DNA of 37,211 nt, from IMG/VR virus record IMGVR_UViG_3300020027_000274, positions 1 through 37,211 of that record. One strand, written 5' to 3'. The notes beneath the pieces are model-generated. The model saw only the letters and a program-made list of their open reading frames with translations. It searched no databases and had not been told where the DNA came from. Positions 2,246-36,093 of this stretch are shown one piece after another. Numbering within the stretch: position 1 is the first letter of the stretch; each line of letters opens with the position of its first letter. Both the position numbers and the translations under genes were made by a program. This stretch comes from a virus.

Positions 2246-2551
2246 ATGAATATTCGCGGTATGGAACAGTTTTTTAGTCAGCTGCCGCACAGGCCTTCAA
2301 TGCCAACGGCTTCAGCGGTGTTAAGTATCGATTTAGCCAAGCCGATCGATCTTTCGCAAATGACTGTAGTAGACGTGAGCACGCGTGTGGTCGAAAGGAA
2401 GTATGGTATGGGTTACACGAATGAGCATACTGTAACGCTCATTGGCTACGAGGATCCCGACAACGACGTTATCAAGGTTACCATTGTCAGAGAATCAGTG
2501 CGCCGGCCTGATTTCAAAGCGATCGAATTGGCATCTAAGAAAGACTCGTAG
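2246..2551 (+). CDS. Hypothetical protein (101 aa)
   Basis: Uncharacterised 101-aa protein with a Pro/Ala-rich N-terminus, an alternating beta-like middle (TVVDVSTRVVERKYG) and a charged C-terminus. It is isolated on the plus strand between a short minus-strand unit and the terminase gene. Its last 17 bases overlap the 3' end of terL on the other strand. It could be a small accessory or lysogeny-expressed gene, but the sequence gives no functional signature. Confidence 0.55.
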   Translation: MNIRGMEQFFSQLPHRPSMPTASAVLSIDLAKPIDLSQMTVVDVSTRVVERKYGMGYTNEHTVTLIGYEDPDNDVIKVTIVRESVRRPDFKAIELASKKDS

Positions 2552-4067
2552 TGTATAGCAGTACGTGGTCCTGGTCACTGTTGCGCTCGCGATGCTGGAG
2601 ACCGTGATACAGTCTATTGTCGTATCCATCGGTATAGTGAGTAGCATGCTGGGGTTTAATTGCAGCGTTGGTCTCTGATTTCTTATCCTTCTTGTCTCCC
2701 TTCATGCGAGCACCCTCGAGGGATATCTTCAGGTCAGCACAATTAACGGCGTTATGCCTAATCATTGGTAGCCGTGGATCATCACCCTTATGCAGCTTAG
2801 AGATAAAGCGGTGACGCTCTATGTGTTCAACGTCACCCATCTTCTTCTGAACAACGCGCCATCCTTTCGCTCTGAGCTTATCAGCGAATTGTTCAAAGGA
2901 TGTCTTCTTTGAATTGGCCACCTTGTTATTGCCTGTGCGGTCTCCCCATTGGAAGATCAGTTTCTCGCGATGACCGCGATAATACTCAATGAAGTGATCA
3001 GCTAGATCGTCCTGGTCTTCGGGTGCAGGACCACCGTTAAAAGTGTGCATACATTTAATGAAGCGCACCTCTCGTGGGTACTCCTGGTCGATCGTTATGC
3101 TATTGAACTTCCCCCAATCGTGGCTAATATTTAATGCCTTGTCGGGGTTATAGTCATCAGGGCCTACGTCGTATGTGGCATCACGTTTGAGCGTACCTAG
3201 CAGACTGATAGGTACTGTGATCATCTTTTCATTCGCTAACGGTGTGTACCAGTGCTTTGCCCCCAGCACAGGGTAAAAGATGTTACCATAGCTGGTAACG
3301 CGCTGGTTGAGTATCATGACCAGGTAAGCATACGCTTCCATCTCAGCTTTCATCTGTAGGATAGCTTTATCCCCGAGCACCAGGCGATTCATCCAGGTAC
3401 TACCTTGCTGCACCCGGGCGTTTGGCTCCCATCCAATGAAGGAATACATCGCGGGGTTAGTTTTTGCTTTCGCGTGAAAGTCTAATAACCAATCGCCCTG
3501 ATTTCTAAAAGGCATGCTGGTGGTGAAGCTTTGCTGAAGATGTATTGAGCAATCACGAAATCGTGGGTGCGTGCCTCTTACAGTAGGGATCACGTAGTTA
3601 TCGTAATCTTCTTTATCAAATAGATAGCACTCATCATTCACAACGTCGTCGTATGAAGCGCCAGACATCAGGGAAGGCCGATCGAATGAGCCGAACACAA
3701 CGCTACGTCCATTCCAAAACGTGATCACGTTCTCATAACGGTGCGGCCGTGCGTAGGGCTTTGCGAAGTGTTTCGGGGGAACTCTACCAACAACATAGTG
3801 GATGCCTTCGATATACCCGAAGTGCTGCTCGAGGGCCGATTTCATTGGTATGAGCGTCTTCGTATAGATCATGCTATACGTCGGAGAAGTGAATAGCCCC
3901 AAACTGCGTGGCATCACTTTAACTTTCTTCGCGGCATCAGCGCCATTGCCAAAGCTTTTGGAGAAACCTCTACCAGCGACTAGAATTTTGTACGGTGTTT
4001 CCGCGCAGTAATGCAGCTGAGCGATCGGATTCAAATATCGCTTTATCTCAGTCTTCTTCTCCGCCAT
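2535..4067 (-). CDS. terL: Terminase large subunit (packaging ATPase/nuclease)
   Basis: A 510-aa DNA-packaging motor that should pump DNA into the prohead at the portal and cut concatemers. The N-terminal ATPase has a terminase-style Walker A, AGRGFSKSF (31-39), in which the usual SGKS is FSKS. Walker B is VVNDE (142-146). The C-terminal RNase H-like nuclease shows the acidic positions Asp317 (SHDWGKF), Asp376 (WGDR) and Asp480/Asp483 (HYTDGYDN). The start overlaps the 3' end of the upstream terS-like gene by 20 bases. It is the last gene of the minus-strand late region, whereas terminase usually opens the late region. Length is typical for TerL. Confidence 0.92.
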   Translation of the reverse strand: MAEKKTEIKRYLNPIAQLHYCAETPYKILVAGRGFSKSFGNGADAAKKVKVMPRSLGLFTSPTYSMIYTKTLIPMKSALEQHFGYIEGIHYVVGRVPPKHFAKPYARPHRYENVITFWNGRSVVFGSFDRPSLMSGASYDDVVNDECYLFDKEDYDNYVIPTVRGTHPRFRDCSIHLQQSFTTSMPFRNQGDWLLDFHAKAKTNPAMYSFIGWEPNARVQQGSTWMNRLVLGDKAILQMKAEMEAYAYLVMILNQRVTSYGNIFYPVLGAKHWYTPLANEKMITVPISLLGTLKRDATYDVGPDDYNPDKALNISHDWGKFNSITIDQEYPREVRFIKCMHTFNGGPAPEDQDDLADHFIEYYRGHREKLIFQWGDRTGNNKVANSKKTSFEQFADKLRAKGWRVVQKKMGDVEHIERHRFISKLHKGDDPRLPMIRHNAVNCADLKISLEGARMKGDKKDKKSETNAAIKPQHATHYTDGYDNRLYHGLQHRERNSDQDHVLLYTTSLS

Positions 4068-29124: not shown

Positions 29125-30846
29125 TTAGTTTTCAAAGAATACATCTGCAGCCTTAATATCTTGATATCCTTCAATGAGCTGAAGGGTACGAAGCTTACTT
29201 AATGCATTGGAAAAACTTCCGCTGTTCCAGGAGTAGCCCGTAGCGGTACCGAGTTCTTCCTTGCGGAAAACTCCTGGATGACCTTCGAGCAACGTGGTAA
29301 GAATCTGTTGCTCCATCCGACCGACTTTTGAAAACCAATATTGTTGTAGCGCTTCACCCGTTGGCATCGGATCGACTGGACCGATAGCGCCCAGGCCTTC
29401 ACCTGTGATGCCAATAATTTCGGAACTGCCAGATATCATACCAGCAGTGCGTAAACGTGATAGCGCGTTAGAGAAAGACCCCGACGTCGATGAATATCCT
29501 GACAGTATACCCAGCTGGCTCTTTGTTGTCTGCGCACGACCATTGCGTTGGGCGAGGACCTGAAGGATTGCCCGTTCCATTCGTCCAATACCAATCGGTC
29601 CGTTTGCTTTGTCTCTCTTGACAACGGGTGCTACAGCGTTGGGTATGACTGAACGCAGGCGCTGTGCCGGCGAATTAGGAGCTTCGACAGCACGACCATT
29701 CTTAACTGACTGGAGCGCTGCCAGTAATGCTTTCGCTACTGAATCCTGGTTTTCCCAGAACAAAGCCATTGCATTCCCATGGCGTTCAGCTTCATTGACC
29801 ATTGCCACCAGATTCTTTTCCGCACGCTTAAAAAAGGCTTCTGATAATACGTTCACCTCCTTCACCTTCTGTGGTGCTGCAGGTTTGCCATTGGCAACTA
29901 GCTTTTCGAGTTCAGCAATTCTCTTTTTGAGTTCCCTAGGATCCTCAGCCTTGGCGCGCTCGATCGTCGCCTTCATTTTCTCTTTAACTTCTGCCAGATC
30001 AATTTCCTTCAAAGCCTTTCCTCTGAAAGTTCCGCCAGCTTTAGGAGTTGAGGTCGAATCGAATGTCCGCTTCTTCGATATTTTTATCTTCTGCAGCACG
30101 TCAAGCCATTGAGGTGACCACACGTAACATTCTCCAGGCTTGAGACTGGGAAGCTCTTCGATCAATTTGACGTCCATGCCTTGATGCACAATCCATTCTC
30201 GGATCGCTTTACGTTCGTGAGCGCCATTGACCTGGAATGCCATCAGGCATTCTGTCTGATTCAAGACTTCCTTATTGACGCTTTGTGGCCGCTGAGTTAT
30301 CATCGTCACACCAATACCGTAATTCCTTCCCAGCCGAATGATCTCTTCATATATGCCGACCATCGATGCCGAGTCACCCCGTACCGCCTCCGGAATGATT
30401 AGCTGCGACTCTTCGAGAACAAGCATCACCGGCGTAGGGTTGTGTTCTGCTTTCTTGCGCTTCCACAGTTGAGCACCAAATGCCGTAGCAAATCTTTGTC
30501 GGTCTACTTTCGTGAACTGGCTTGCATCGATGACAAGGCTTCTACCGCTGTCAATCAGAATATCTGCGACTAATGTGCCCCCAGTTGGTTCAAGAGGAAT
30601 GTCGCCGCGTAAACCGCCAATGATCGGAATATCGATACCCTTTGATTTTCCATCTGCAGCCAACCGAAGCCCATACCAATTACCCACGGTATCGAGTATT
30701 GCGACCTGTATGCCGGCATCAATTAGTAACTCGACCAATTTTCCGGAGCCATAACTTTTGCCGCTTCCCTTTCGGCCAATGAAGGCAAAGGTTTGAGTTG
30801 CTGCATCGAGCGGAAGTGATAACGTTTCAGATAATTTTATCTTCAT
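29125..30846 (-). CDS. HerA/FtsK-like ATPase with duplicated winged-helix-like C-terminus
   Basis: A 573-aa ATP-binding protein of the HerA/DUF87 type. Walker A is GRKGSGKS (24-31), Walker B VMLVLEES (140-147) with catalytic Glu, and TQRPQ (184-188) is a sensor-like motif. A charged helical linker occupies ~280-420. The C-terminus has two homologous units, GRMERAILQVLAQ...GYSSTSGSFSNALSRLRTAG (~421-470) and GRMEQQILTTLLE...GYSWNSGSFSNALSKLRTLQ (~509-556), each resembling a winged helix. HerA proteins are ring-shaped DNA translocases. Its place in the replication region suggests DNA processing; a defence role is an alternative because HerA ATPases occur in anti-phage systems. It forms a run of coupled genes with the 105-aa and 109-aa proteins. 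Confidence 0.85.
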   Translation of the reverse strand: MKIKLSETLSLPLDAATQTFAFIGRKGSGKSYGSGKLVELLIDAGIQVAILDTVGNWYGLRLAADGKSKGIDIPIIGGLRGDIPLEPTGGTLVADILIDSGRSLVIDASQFTKVDRQRFATAFGAQLWKRKKAEHNPTPVMLVLEESQLIIPEAVRGDSASMVGIYEEIIRLGRNYGIGVTMITQRPQSVNKEVLNQTECLMAFQVNGAHERKAIREWIVHQGMDVKLIEELPSLKPGECYVWSPQWLDVLQKIKISKKRTFDSTSTPKAGGTFRGKALKEIDLAEVKEKMKATIERAKAEDPRELKKRIAELEKLVANGKPAAPQKVKEVNVLSEAFFKRAEKNLVAMVNEAERHGNAMALFWENQDSVAKALLAALQSVKNGRAVEAPNSPAQRLRSVIPNAVAPVVKRDKANGPIGIGRMERAILQVLAQRNGRAQTTKSQLGILSGYSSTSGSFSNALSRLRTAGMISGSSEIIGITGEGLGAIGPVDPMPTGEALQQYWFSKVGRMEQQILTTLLEGHPGVFRKEELGTATGYSWNSGSFSNALSKLRTLQLIEGYQDIKAADVFFEN

Positions 30847-31523: not shown

Positions 31524-31871
31524 TTACAATGAATAGGGCCTCCGTACACCGGGGATCCGAGCCTGGCAGGTGCTGCACAGATCTGCTTCGACCCAGTGGC
31601 AGTTTCCCTCCGGCGCGATGCAAGGATTGTTTTCCGAGCACCCGCACTTGCGGCAGATCCGGGAGTTGATCGCCACGAAGGAGGCGCGCTCCCAGGGATC
31701 CATTTGCGGCCACCCGTCTTGGGTGACGCTTTCGATCAGTCGAAGGAGCTTCTGACCTTTGCCTGGAGTTGCGACGTCCCGGAGGCCGTTGTCGCAAATG
31801 TGGTACAGGGACCCATCTGCGTACTTGAACATGACTTCTACCATAGTTTTAGGAATTTTTTTTGTGCTCAT
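31524..31871 (-). CDS. Zinc-binding small phage protein (115 aa)
   Basis: A 115-aa protein whose C-terminal half has clustered Cys/His: CRKCGCSENNPC (~73-84), NCHWVEADLCSTC (~89-101). The combination CRxCGC...C...C.WVE.DLCS.C recurs in small phage proteins and should bind zinc. The N-terminal half (YADGSLYHICDNGLRDVAT) is different and uncharacterised. It is the first gene after the iteron-like array, 17 bases downstream of it. A role in DNA binding is plausible. Confidence 0.75.
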   Translation of the reverse strand: MSTKKIPKTMVEVMFKYADGSLYHICDNGLRDVATPGKGQKLLRLIESVTQDGWPQMDPWERASFVAINSRICRKCGCSENNPCIAPEGNCHWVEADLCSTCQARIPGVRRPYSL

Positions 31872-31887: not shown

Positions 31888-32013
31888 TGTCACGCTGTCA
31901 CGCTTGTCACACTTGTCACGCCTGTCACGCTTTGTCACGCGTTTATCACGCATTTATTTTTATTAACTAATTGATAATCAGATAGTGAGACAAAGCGTGA
32001 CAAGCGTGACAGG
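31888..32013. repeat. Iteron-like TGTCACGC array with AT-rich core (putative replication origin)
   Basis: Six direct copies of TGTCACGC (one reads TGTCACAC) begin at 31888, 31896, 31905, 31914, 31923 and 31933, and a seventh degenerate copy TATCACGC at 31944. Two inverted copies GCGTGACA lie at 31995-32002 and 32004-32011. Between them is an AT-rich stretch (~31951-31984). The outer parts CCTGTCACGCTTTGTCACGC (31921-31940) and GCGTGACAAGCGTGACAGG (31995-32013) are near-perfect inverted repeats. The array lies between the primase-helicase and the zinc-binding gene, in a gap of 154 bases. This layout fits an origin with initiator sites and an unwinding element. An operator is the alternative. 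Confidence 0.75.
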
Positions 32014-32025
32014 TTTTTGGGGATT

Positions 32026-35000
32026 TTAAAATGGAACGTCCTCATTTTTTTTGCTGACGGTCAGCTGGACCGGCGCCGGCGTGGCCGTTCCGTTCCCAGT
32101 GCGACCAATTTCGGGGCTGTCCAAGCCACCTCCGGAGGCCTTGGAAAGGGATTCCTTGACCAGGACAATGCCCATATTATTCATCTGGCTGTAGTCAAAA
32201 ACCAGGCAACTGGTACGCTTATCGTTGAAGGATTCTGCCGGACACAGGCCCAGGTAATAGGGCTGGTCCCTCATATATAGAGCGAGCGTATCTTCAGCCG
32301 GCGGCACCTGTCCGGTCCGCTCCCTGTACGACTTCGCGTACTTCGCGTAGACGTTGCTAAACCGGATCAACAAAACGTCGCATCGGATATCCTTCTTCTT
32401 TTCAATCTCAGAGCCGACCTTCAAGGCGATCTCCTTCCTGGAGCTGACCTTTATGTCTACGCCTTCGACGATCACCCCCTGATCGAACATGAACTCGACG
32501 CCCTTCCAGAAGATATTTATAGCGCTATTGTCCCTGAGCAACTTAGTGTGGTTGATCACCTGGCGCATGGCCATTTTAAACACTTCCTCGTAGCTGAATG
32601 GAAGCTTCACGAACGTAGCGAGCAGTTTGGTGGCCGCCAGGATCAACCCATAATTATTTAGCAACCGAGCCTCTACACGTTCGCCTATTGCCCGTGTTTC
32701 TATGGTCAATCTCTGATGCTCAGAGAGAAAAACTTTGGGAAGCTTTTCCTTTACTTCATCGCGATACTTCAAAAGCTCTAAGAGTAAACTACTCAGTCCA
32801 TGCTGTTCGGCAGTCTTCAGGCTTTCGTGGGCCTGTTGCTGAGATTCCGTCAGGTTACTTAATCGATCTAAACTAAAGGGACACGTGATGGATCGGCTAA
32901 GCACAGAGCCGTCATCACGGATAGAGATGTATTGTCCGACGAGAATTACCGTACCCTGAATCTTCTGGATCCTGGTCTTACGCTTCTTACCTGTGTCACC
33001 GTCGCCAACCTCGCGACCTTCACCATCATAGGCCGCTTTGAAGGTGCCGAACTTCCAATCTTCAATACTGTTTTCATCGAATTCGTTAAAGAGTACGGGA
33101 CAATTTCTAAAGCGCTCTACACGATTGAAGAAACTAAACGGCGTTCCTTGGCCGGGATTCAAATTGAACCCTTTAATCAAATCACCCTCGCCGTTCTTTC
33201 CAGAGAAAAACAACCAGGTCAAGCTTTCCGCCATTGCACTTTTGCCGGATCCCTTCGGTCCGTAGCAGTAAAGCATTGGCATTTTGGTGATACGCGTTAC
33301 GATATCTTTAAACACCGTAAGGAAAGCGAATGCTATTCCATATGGTGCGTTGGAGCCGTATGTCGTATTGAACAATGAGGCCCATTTTTCGAATGTGATG
33401 TTGCTTTGCATATAAGATAAATAAAGGTCGTTCTCGTAAGGATTATCAGTTAGTCGTTCGTCGCGGTGGATCTTGCTGCGTCCTAGGGACAGATAGAATT
33501 TGTCATCGACCCTGATCGTTCCCATGTCGTCGTAGCGCAACATGTTCCCGCCGTGGTATACTGCATCACTGAAAGCAAAAAAACCTTCGGGCTGCCACCC
33601 TAAAGTTTTTAGTTCAAACGCCAGCGGCATGGTATCCATCAACCAACCAGTGACGCGCTTGAAATGTTGCTTCTGAAATTGAAACTCCGTACGAAAGTTT
33701 CCTCTGCGGAGCAATTCATTTTCGAAATGCGTTTGATTTCCGAACGCTTCTGTCGGCATCTCCACCATCGCATTGCGTACACAGTTAAAGATTTCTACGA
33801 GCCGGCGATTGTTGCTCTGCTCATAGATGTGATAGAGTGGCCTTAATGTGAAGTTGGTCGTGCGATACACGCCACCATTCACGTTCTTAAAATAGATACC
33901 GGCTTTGTATCCATCTTGCGAGACGGCCAGCTGCACGAACCCATCTTCGTCGAGGCGCTTTTTGTCTACCCAATCTGGCAACGGATCCTGAAACATCGAA
34001 TCTTCCTCCATTGTTCGGATCTTTTCCTGCGCACGCTGCTTAACAGCTTTGTCCAGAGGCTTTGATAAGTCCGCTGCCTTTAGACCGTACTTTTTTGCCA
34101 GTGATTTCACGTATTGCTCTACGCGGATCTCGCTTGTCATCAGAGAAAGCAGGTTAATGGTGCTCTTGATGGCCACCGACATATTGTAGGCAGACAATTT
34201 TCCCTCTGTCAGATACTTGCCACATAGGTACTCGACGCCGTCCTGGTAGTCCCAAAGGACGTTGACCATCTTTTCAGTACAGTCGAACAGTGAATCGGGA
34301 TCCTCTTTTGGTGGGAGAATGCATATGAAGACGTTGAATTGCTCGGCAAGCAGAATGGGGATATCCTTTTCCATGGCAGCAATGCCGGCGGCATCGCCAT
34401 CGCGCAACACCAGGACTGTGTCAGTGTAGCGTCTCAGGATCTTGGCGTGCTTCTCAGTGAGCGCGGTACCGCAGGTGGCCACCGTATTGTCCCATCCAGA
34501 TTGATGGAGCTTGATAACATCGAAGTACCCTTCTACCAGGACGGCCATGCCGTGATCTCTAAACCCTTTGATCGCTTTCGACAAACCGAATAGCACCTGT
34601 GATTTGTGATAGATCGGACTCTCCGGAGAGTTCATGTACTTTGCCCCTTCGTTGGCCAACCGACGGCCACCGAGGGCGACTACTTCGCCACGCTTATTTT
34701 CGATAGGTATGGTGATACGATGATGGAAGTAATCGTAAAGGGTGTTGTTGTCACTGGCCTTCACCAGTCCGCACTTCTCGGAAAGGGTGTAGCCTTCTTT
34801 GACAGCGGTTGTGGTGAATGATTTCCAATCAAGGCATACGCCTAGCTTCCAATCGATGATGGTTTCCCTGGTGAGTCTACGCTGCTCCATCAGGTACTTC
34901 ACCGTCGGCATGTCAAGAGATCGCCGGTAAAGGTCCTGCGCTTTAAACATCAGGTCCTTCATGGTAAGTTCTTCGCTCTTTTCCTCCGGAGACTTCTCGG

Positions 35001-35301
35001 TGGTTTCCTTTTCAACGAGCTCGATGCCGTGATCCCTGGCAATAAGACGGACGGCTTCATCGAAAGGTAAATTTTCGTGCAGCATAACGAAGTGAATTGC
35101 GTCGCCGCCGGCGCCACACCCGAAACACTTGAAAATGTTTCTCCCTGGATGAACGTAAAAGGATGGGGTACTCTCGCCGTGCAAAGGACAACAGGCTTTA
35201 AAAGAGACGCCTGCTTTCTTTAGAGGCACGAAAAGCTCGACTATACTGTCAACGGGTAACTCGCGAATCGCCTCTATTGTAGTTGTTGAAATGTAGGACA
35301 T
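32026..35301 (-). CDS. DNA primase-helicase fusion
   Basis: A 1091-aa replication protein. N-terminal CHC2 zinc finger: Cys38, His41, Cys59, Cys62 (ACCPLHGESTP...KCFGCGAGGD). DnaG-type TOPRIM domain: VEGYFDVI (256-263, Glu257), VLRDGDAAG (Asp301, Asp303) and DPDS (334-337). The C-terminal half is a P-loop ATPase with GPKGSGKS (681-688) and Walker B VLFNEFDE (~736-743), resembling primase-associated or DUF927-type helicases. It makes primers and probably unwinds DNA for phage replication. It lies next to the repeat array, its likely origin. The linker (~400-650) is not assigned. Confidence 0.9.
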   Translation of the reverse strand: MSYISTTTIEAIRELPVDSIVELFVPLKKAGVSFKACCPLHGESTPSFYVHPGRNIFKCFGCGAGGDAIHFVMLHENLPFDEAVRLIARDHGIELVEKETTEKSPEEKSEELTMKDLMFKAQDLYRRSLDMPTVKYLMEQRRLTRETIIDWKLGVCLDWKSFTTTAVKEGYTLSEKCGLVKASDNNTLYDYFHHRITIPIENKRGEVVALGGRRLANEGAKYMNSPESPIYHKSQVLFGLSKAIKGFRDHGMAVLVEGYFDVIKLHQSGWDNTVATCGTALTEKHAKILRRYTDTVLVLRDGDAAGIAAMEKDIPILLAEQFNVFICILPPKEDPDSLFDCTEKMVNVLWDYQDGVEYLCGKYLTEGKLSAYNMSVAIKSTINLLSLMTSEIRVEQYVKSLAKKYGLKAADLSKPLDKAVKQRAQEKIRTMEEDSMFQDPLPDWVDKKRLDEDGFVQLAVSQDGYKAGIYFKNVNGGVYRTTNFTLRPLYHIYEQSNNRRLVEIFNCVRNAMVEMPTEAFGNQTHFENELLRRGNFRTEFQFQKQHFKRVTGWLMDTMPLAFELKTLGWQPEGFFAFSDAVYHGGNMLRYDDMGTIRVDDKFYLSLGRSKIHRDERLTDNPYENDLYLSYMQSNITFEKWASLFNTTYGSNAPYGIAFAFLTVFKDIVTRITKMPMLYCYGPKGSGKSAMAESLTWLFFSGKNGEGDLIKGFNLNPGQGTPFSFFNRVERFRNCPVLFNEFDENSIEDWKFGTFKAAYDGEGREVGDGDTGKKRKTRIQKIQGTVILVGQYISIRDDGSVLSRSITCPFSLDRLSNLTESQQQAHESLKTAEQHGLSSLLLELLKYRDEVKEKLPKVFLSEHQRLTIETRAIGERVEARLLNNYGLILAATKLLATFVKLPFSYEEVFKMAMRQVINHTKLLRDNSAINIFWKGVEFMFDQGVIVEGVDIKVSSRKEIALKVGSEIEKKKDIRCDVLLIRFSNVYAKYAKSYRERTGQVPPAEDTLALYMRDQPYYLGLCPAESFNDKRTSCLVFDYSQMNNMGIVLVKESLSKASGGGLDSPEIGRTGNGTATPAPVQLTVSKKNEDVPF

Positions 35302-35337: not shown

Positions 35338-36093
35338 TTACTGCGCTGTCGCTTCTGTCACTGCCTTTCTTTCCATGATCAGCTGGCCTTGTCTGAATAA
35401 CTCTGATCGCCTACGATTAAGATATCGCAGCATGGTAGCTGCTATTAACAATGAGCCTTCCTGGCCCAGGTAGAAATTTACCGGGTCGAGCTTCGGACCT
35501 GACAGAGTTAGCCCATGGATCGAATCTTTACGAATCGAATCAAGGGTCACAATCTGTCGGTCGATGTCTTCAATGTGCTGATTGATCAGTCTGATCTTCA
35601 TCACTCTTTCTTCATCTGAAATTTCATTTAGCTTGTCTACAATAGACGTTTGCATAGGTAAGTTGTTAAAGTGATTTAAAATGGAGAATAGACGCAACTG
35701 ATGACGGCGGGAGAACTTCTTACCGTACTTCATTCGCATAAGGTTATCGCCGCGATCGTGAGACAAATGACAGCGCCGGCACCAATACTTGAGATTCCAA
35801 AATCGGTTATTGTTGATGTCTCCATCCACGTGCGCGCAGCCCAGCTGTACTAAGGTGCCTGGATTGAGGTTGCTATCGTTACCCGCGAACCCGGTCGGAT
35901 CATTAGAGAAAATGGATAACTGATTCCTTCCGGAAAATTTGGGCCTAATGACTTCACCGATGTATACTGATCCGTTCTCAGCGCGACAGTCGGGAAACTT
36001 TTCAGATCCCTCGCAGCGGTTGCCGGCACGCCGCCTGATCAGCCGCACGATGAGCGTCCACTTAGGATGATATTCGCTGTAGTCTACTGGCAT
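35338..36093 (-). CDS. HNH-type zinc/nuclease protein (251 aa)
   Basis: A 251-aa protein with an HNH-like N-terminal domain: RRRAGNRCEGSEKFPDC (~21-36), then CAHVDGDINNNRFWNLKYW (~86-104) and CRRCHLSHD (~105-113). Cys pairs plus the His and Asn core give the expected metal and catalytic sites. The C-terminal half is helical (VMKIRLINQHIEDIDRQIVT), perhaps for DNA binding. Such proteins act in phage DNA cleavage or recombination, or are free-standing homing-type nucleases. It overlaps the 81-aa gene by 10 bases and precedes the primase gene. Confidence 0.72.
   Translation of the reverse strand: MPVDYSEYHPKWTLIVRLIRRRAGNRCEGSEKFPDCRAENGSVYIGEVIRPKFSGRNQLSIFSNDPTGFAGNDSNLNPGTLVQLGCAHVDGDINNNRFWNLKYWCRRCHLSHDRGDNLMRMKYGKKFSRRHQLRLFSILNHFNNLPMQTSIVDKLNEISDEERVMKIRLINQHIEDIDRQIVTLDSIRKDSIHGLTLSGPKLDPVNFYLGQEGSLLIAATMLRYLNRRRSELFRQGQLIMERKAVTEATAQ

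Follow-up and report, generated by a model that had tools for sequence, protein, structure and literature searches.

The systems closest to the locus described here are the replication modules of SaPI/PICI islands, known from staphylococci, and of SCCmec elements, the P4 alpha protein and the replication gene of pRN1. The C-terminal domain of SaPI Rep and of Cch2 recognises iterons that lie immediately 3' of the gene for the protein itself (PMC7581432), and helicases of the Cch/Cch2 type carry no primase domain (PMC7581432; PMC10061031). PICI origins are found immediately 3' of the initiator gene and consist of two sets of iterons around an A+T-rich region; a PICI rep gene together with its ori replicates a plasmid (PMC6092414). 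In P4 alpha one chain carries a Toprim primase, a helicase and a winged helix for binding the origin repeats, and in pRN1 the origin lies downstream of the replication gene, which encodes ORF904, a protein with a C-terminal winged helix (PMC4234260).

The window, that is the whole stretch of DNA analysed, is a virus record of 37,211 bases which encodes an integrase, a large terminase and a head maturation protease and is thus a tailed phage. An array of short repeats lies in the interval from the end of a primase-helicase gene (32026–35301, minus strand, 1091 aa) to the start of the gene at 31524–31871; it is on the 3' (downstream) side of the minus-strand primase-helicase gene and begins 15 bp past its stop codon. 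The segment 31888–32011 is very probably a phage replication origin of the SaPI/PICI rep-ori type, with the adjacent primase-helicase as the candidate reader of its iterons. The neighbourhood also includes an HNH-endonuclease-like protein encoded directly upstream of the primase-helicase (35338–36093, minus strand) and, at 29125–30846 (minus strand), a HerA-like ATPase. The latter also shows similarity to a large terminase subunit (phrog_2666) and is distinct from the terminase gene at 2535–4067, which lies away from the array.

The direct iteron set comprises seven TGTCACGC-type units on the plus strand (31888–31951) with starts at 31888, 31896, 31905, 31914, 31923, 31933 and 31944, at steps of 8, 9, 9, 9, 10 and 11 bases; the unit at 31905 reads TGTCACAC and that at 31944 TATCACGC. 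It is followed by a core of 80% A+T (31952–31992), presumed to be the melting site by analogy with PICI origins (PMC6092414), and by an inverted pair of exact TGTCACGCT units on the minus strand (31994–32011; 9-mers at 31994–32002 and 32003–32011). Read from the stop codon, the layout consists of two forward units, a 64-base step over the A+T core and six reversed units. The iterons also make up the arms of a long inverted repeat (26 nt each, 92% complementary, 52 nt apart). Direct octamers, A+T-rich core, inverted units and long inverted repeat had all been reported in a preliminary description of the sequence and are confirmed here.

Within the genome the array stands out by several measures. 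Exact TGTCACGC occurs seven times in the 37,211 bases, always inside the array, compared with an expectation of 1.34, and none of 100 shuffles reached seven. GTGACA is present eight times in the array, which is the densest short repeat of the 37 kb; elsewhere in the 37 kb scanned no hexamer exceeds four copies per 200 bp, and in 20 dinucleotide shuffles of the entire window the highest count per 200 bp was 3–5. The genome is 51% A+T, and only 10 of 37,171 positions match the core in A+T richness. A search for a terminator found none, and the cumulative GC-skew minimum, at 34,701 and 2.7 kb from the array, is not decisive.

The primase-helicase combines, in its N-terminal part (residues ~1–340), a DnaG-type zinc ribbon, a DnaG core and a Toprim domain with a helicase of the Cch/SaPI-Rep type (residues ~561–920) that Pfam barely detects. 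An AlphaFold model of residues 561–1091 (pLDDT 78) had SCCmec Cch as its best Foldseek match (5dgk, E 5e-13); it aligned with Cch over 383 residues (Z 23.3, rmsd 4.9, model 2–492) and with SaPIbov1 Rep over 360 (Z 19.0, rmsd 6.6). Both matches span nearly the whole of the model, and the next fold group is that of the MCM helicases (Z 15.0). The proposed iteron-binding domain is a predicted C-terminal winged helix (residues 920–1056; 32134–32544, minus strand; pLDDT 85.9). Taken alone, this domain had no significant Foldseek match, and its likeness to the oriT-binding protein TcpK (Z 6.4) and to residues 452–561 of SaPIbov1 Rep (Z 6.2) is moderate, other scores being 4.4 or less. A sequence search of solved structures with the primase-helicase retrieved neither Cch nor Rep, so that the link to Cch is by predicted fold.

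On these features the locus resembles the pri-rep-ori arrangement of SaPI/PICI elements (SaPIbov1 Rep, EcCICFT073): the array is immediately 3' of the gene for the candidate initiator helicase, as it is on the 3' side only in the relatives that have one, two iteron sets flank an A+T-rich region, and the predicted folds of both the helicase and the C-terminal domain match SaPIbov1 Rep, the helicase being assigned to the Rep/Cch type by modelled structure. It differs from them in that the helicase is joined to a DnaG-type primase, in that the iteron sequence is its own, and in that the window, which encodes a large terminase as well as a head maturation protease, is a tailed phage and not a satellite, so that the type of origin alone is shared. 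SCCmec Cch/Cch2 provide the best match by predicted fold and likewise have direct repeats downstream of the gene, but sequence similarity is not detectable and the window protein carries a primase. The domain order of the protein is similar to that of P4 alpha (Toprim primase, helicase and a predicted winged helix in one chain); the primase of the window protein has a DnaG zinc ribbon and core, its helicase appears by modelled fold nearer to Cch/SaPI Rep and MCM, and no P4 alpha structure or family was among its matches. As in pRN1 ORF904, the probable origin is downstream of the replication gene and the C-terminus is a winged helix (here a predicted one), whereas the pRN1 origin is a large stem-loop without iterons and the window has iterons, with inverted arms 52 bases apart.

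Relatives of the primase-helicase occur in phages of Porphyromonas, Cellulophaga and Flavobacterium, among others, which makes a member of the Bacteroidota the probable host of the window; a direct search of viral contigs found no close relatives. Loci of the family were collected by protein similarity only, blind to repeats, from viral contigs, 395 Bacteroidota genomes and GenBank phages, and three stretches were tested in each (3' flank, 5' flank and inside the gene; 600 bp tested), an array being scored where the hexamer count was reached in none of 100 shuffles. Of 25 loci, the window included, 13 have an array on the 3' side of the gene; on the 5' side the count was none of 23 and within the gene none of 28. 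Their units include CCAACA, CCTACA, CTCAAC, TACAAC, CTAACG, CTAACC, TCTAAC and TGCTAA among others, and in the Flavobacterium phage laban6-1 the array is 63–222 bp past the primase stop. Seven loci (L374, L382, L486, L489, L477, L480 and, less cleanly, L485) have the layout of the window, with 2–3 forward units separated from the reversed units by a step of 37–96 bases across an A+T-rich core, written in CCAACA, CCTACA, CTCAAC, TACAAC or CTAACC. A constant layout with changed letters is the trace expected of a diverging pair of initiator and origin.

The remaining 12 of the 25 loci, for instance Cellulophaga phage Ingeline and Porphyromonas phages, have no strong array within the 600 bp tested, and in some of them the array may have been relocated. 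The Porphyromonas phage locus L059 contains nine CCTACA-type units ~1.6 kb past the primase stop and several genes away from the primase, perhaps a displaced origin; in L486 the same CCTACA unit appears soon after the primase stop.

Because its helicase half has the predicted fold of Cch and SaPIbov1 Rep and ends in a winged helix, the adjacent primase-helicase is itself most likely the initiator. The preliminary description had suggested a phage origin beside this gene, and position, layout and the 13 loci with an array of their own in that place support it; its further proposal, that no initiator was evident and that a small protein or a gene outside the window might serve, finds no support in the modelled Cch/Rep fold and winged helix, so that its interpretation stands only in part.

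Pattern scans for TGTCAC (GTGACA on the opposite strand) retrieved arrays adjoining the 3' end of primase-helicase genes from the AAA_25/Prim-Pol, VapE, DUF5906/D5, DUF927 and DUF3987 families. A universal role of TGTCAC as a phage origin motif was considered and rejected as a selection effect, the loci having been chosen by the motif. Among helicases sampled by protein alone a TGTCAC array was present in 1 of 173 loci and other hexamers occupied the same place, which indicates a general location combined with a sequence particular to each replicon; TGTCAC is this phage's own specificity. In protein-sampled loci of the AAA_25 type a strong array was located from –200 to +300 of the stop codon in 53 of 73 cases, and groups of these loci each have their own hexamer (e.g., GTACCA, GTTACA, GTCCGA, TGGGAA, CGGGAC). 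Dense octamers, earlier described as uncommon, are uncommon within this genome but common among phages 3' of primase-helicase genes. A partial literature search found no paper on a TGTCAC phage origin, and earlier descriptions of such origins may exist.

The same sample bears on the possibility that the array serves not as an origin but as an operator or a site of autoregulation, for the gene at 31524–31871 or for the primase operon. Such a role would suit its place directly upstream of the start of that gene and the two weak sigma-70-like matches that overlap it. It is nonetheless quite improbable, given that 13 of 56 arrays of the AAA_25 set precede a convergent ORF and so control no start there, that the position of the array follows the helicase stop codon (of 58 strong arrays, 53 fall within –200 to +300 of it), and that a span of 125 bp with two opposed sets flanking an A+T core would be an unusual layout for an operator.

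Repeats were also observed in other settings. In the VapE family (A3) arrays at the stop codon are rare, and weaker repeats (CTGTCC, GTGGGA, GTCCCA, GGGACA) recur ~380 bp past the helicase stop in many of the loci L397–L470. Long arrays of TGTCAC units occur in five contigs assigned to Thaumarchaeota/Nitrosopumilus (L092, L100, L109, L151, L172), where they may be origins or coding repeats. TGTCAC arrays with direct and inverted units adjoin a terminase-small-subunit-like gene, with no adjacent helicase, at L006:400–693, L041:9592–9885 and L049:4322–4615 and also in L032 and L044.

Clustered repeats serve in partition, incompatibility or packaging too, and the arrays of L006, L041 and their kin beside a terminase-small-subunit-like gene would fit such a role. 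For the array of the window such a function is highly improbable: a scan of ten neighbouring proteins found no ParA or ParB, the identified terminase gene is elsewhere, and the relatives keep the array with the helicase.

Which part of the protein follows the repeat unit was examined in 34 non-redundant, unbiased AAA_25-type helicases, a family different from that of the window; a first covariation test had included loci selected by TGTCAC and was repeated on unbiased loci only. The last 110 residues best predict similarity of the repeat unit (partial r 0.217 with the other segments controlled, reached in 0 of 500 permutations), a weaker effect is seen for the segment before the helicase core (0.117; 1 of 500 permutations), and the remaining segments are near zero. 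This covariation supports the C-terminus as the reader of the repeats and is not proof, as the permutations leave relatedness in and the family is the AAA_25 type and not that of the window. Helicases with different cores beside TGTCAC arrays (L007, L016, L017, L019, L040, L221, L230, L013, L194) share a C-terminal motif like (K/R)RQA(F/L)xRA, possibly a recognition helix, and similar motifs with other residues accompany GTACCA and GTAACG units.

An origin at this site could also be served by a separate small phage protein or a host protein that binds the iterons, the primase-helicase being merely recruited, in the manner of the three separate proteins of RSF1010 or of lambda O. Several small uncharacterised genes adjoin the array, and a shared binder could explain TGTCAC arrays 3' of helicases with unrelated C-termini; yet TGTCAC is almost absent from helicases sampled without selection for the motif. 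Units differ, moreover, among relatives with the same helicase within the Bacteroidota, a variation incompatible with a conserved host factor, the fold predicted for the helicase belongs to initiators which bind their own origin, and in the AAA_25 set it is the C-terminus that best tracks the repeat unit. A separate binder is accordingly considered unlikely.

With the primase-helicase as initiator, its C-terminal winged helix would bind the TGTCACGC units of both iteron sets and helicase rings would load on both sides of the A+T core, which would then melt, whereupon the rings would unwind the DNA; the fused N-terminal DnaG-type primase would prime both forks or strands, and a host polymerase would continue synthesis. 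Gene and target, being adjacent, would move together as a single module that has its own specificity. The probable rep-ori of SaPI/PICI type described here differs from those known in having a DnaG-type primase joined to its helicase, and it occurs in a tailed phage and some dozen relatives.

More tentatively, and with appreciable doubt, a helicase gene with a 3' iteron array may represent a general, swappable replication module of tailed phages from many host phyla, in which the C-terminal winged helix would set a unit of 6–8 bases and TGTCAC would have been reached or shared by unrelated families (D5/DUF5906, VapE, DUF927, DUF3987, AAA_25 and DnaG-Cch). Few of the phages known only from sequence have an assigned origin. 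The rule that a helicase has its own repeat on its 3' side lets many phage origins be read off, and the many pairs of helicase and iteron with differing units make a recognition code testable. If the module is indeed swappable, it would provide a readable protein–DNA code as well as a system for compatibility among co-infecting elements.
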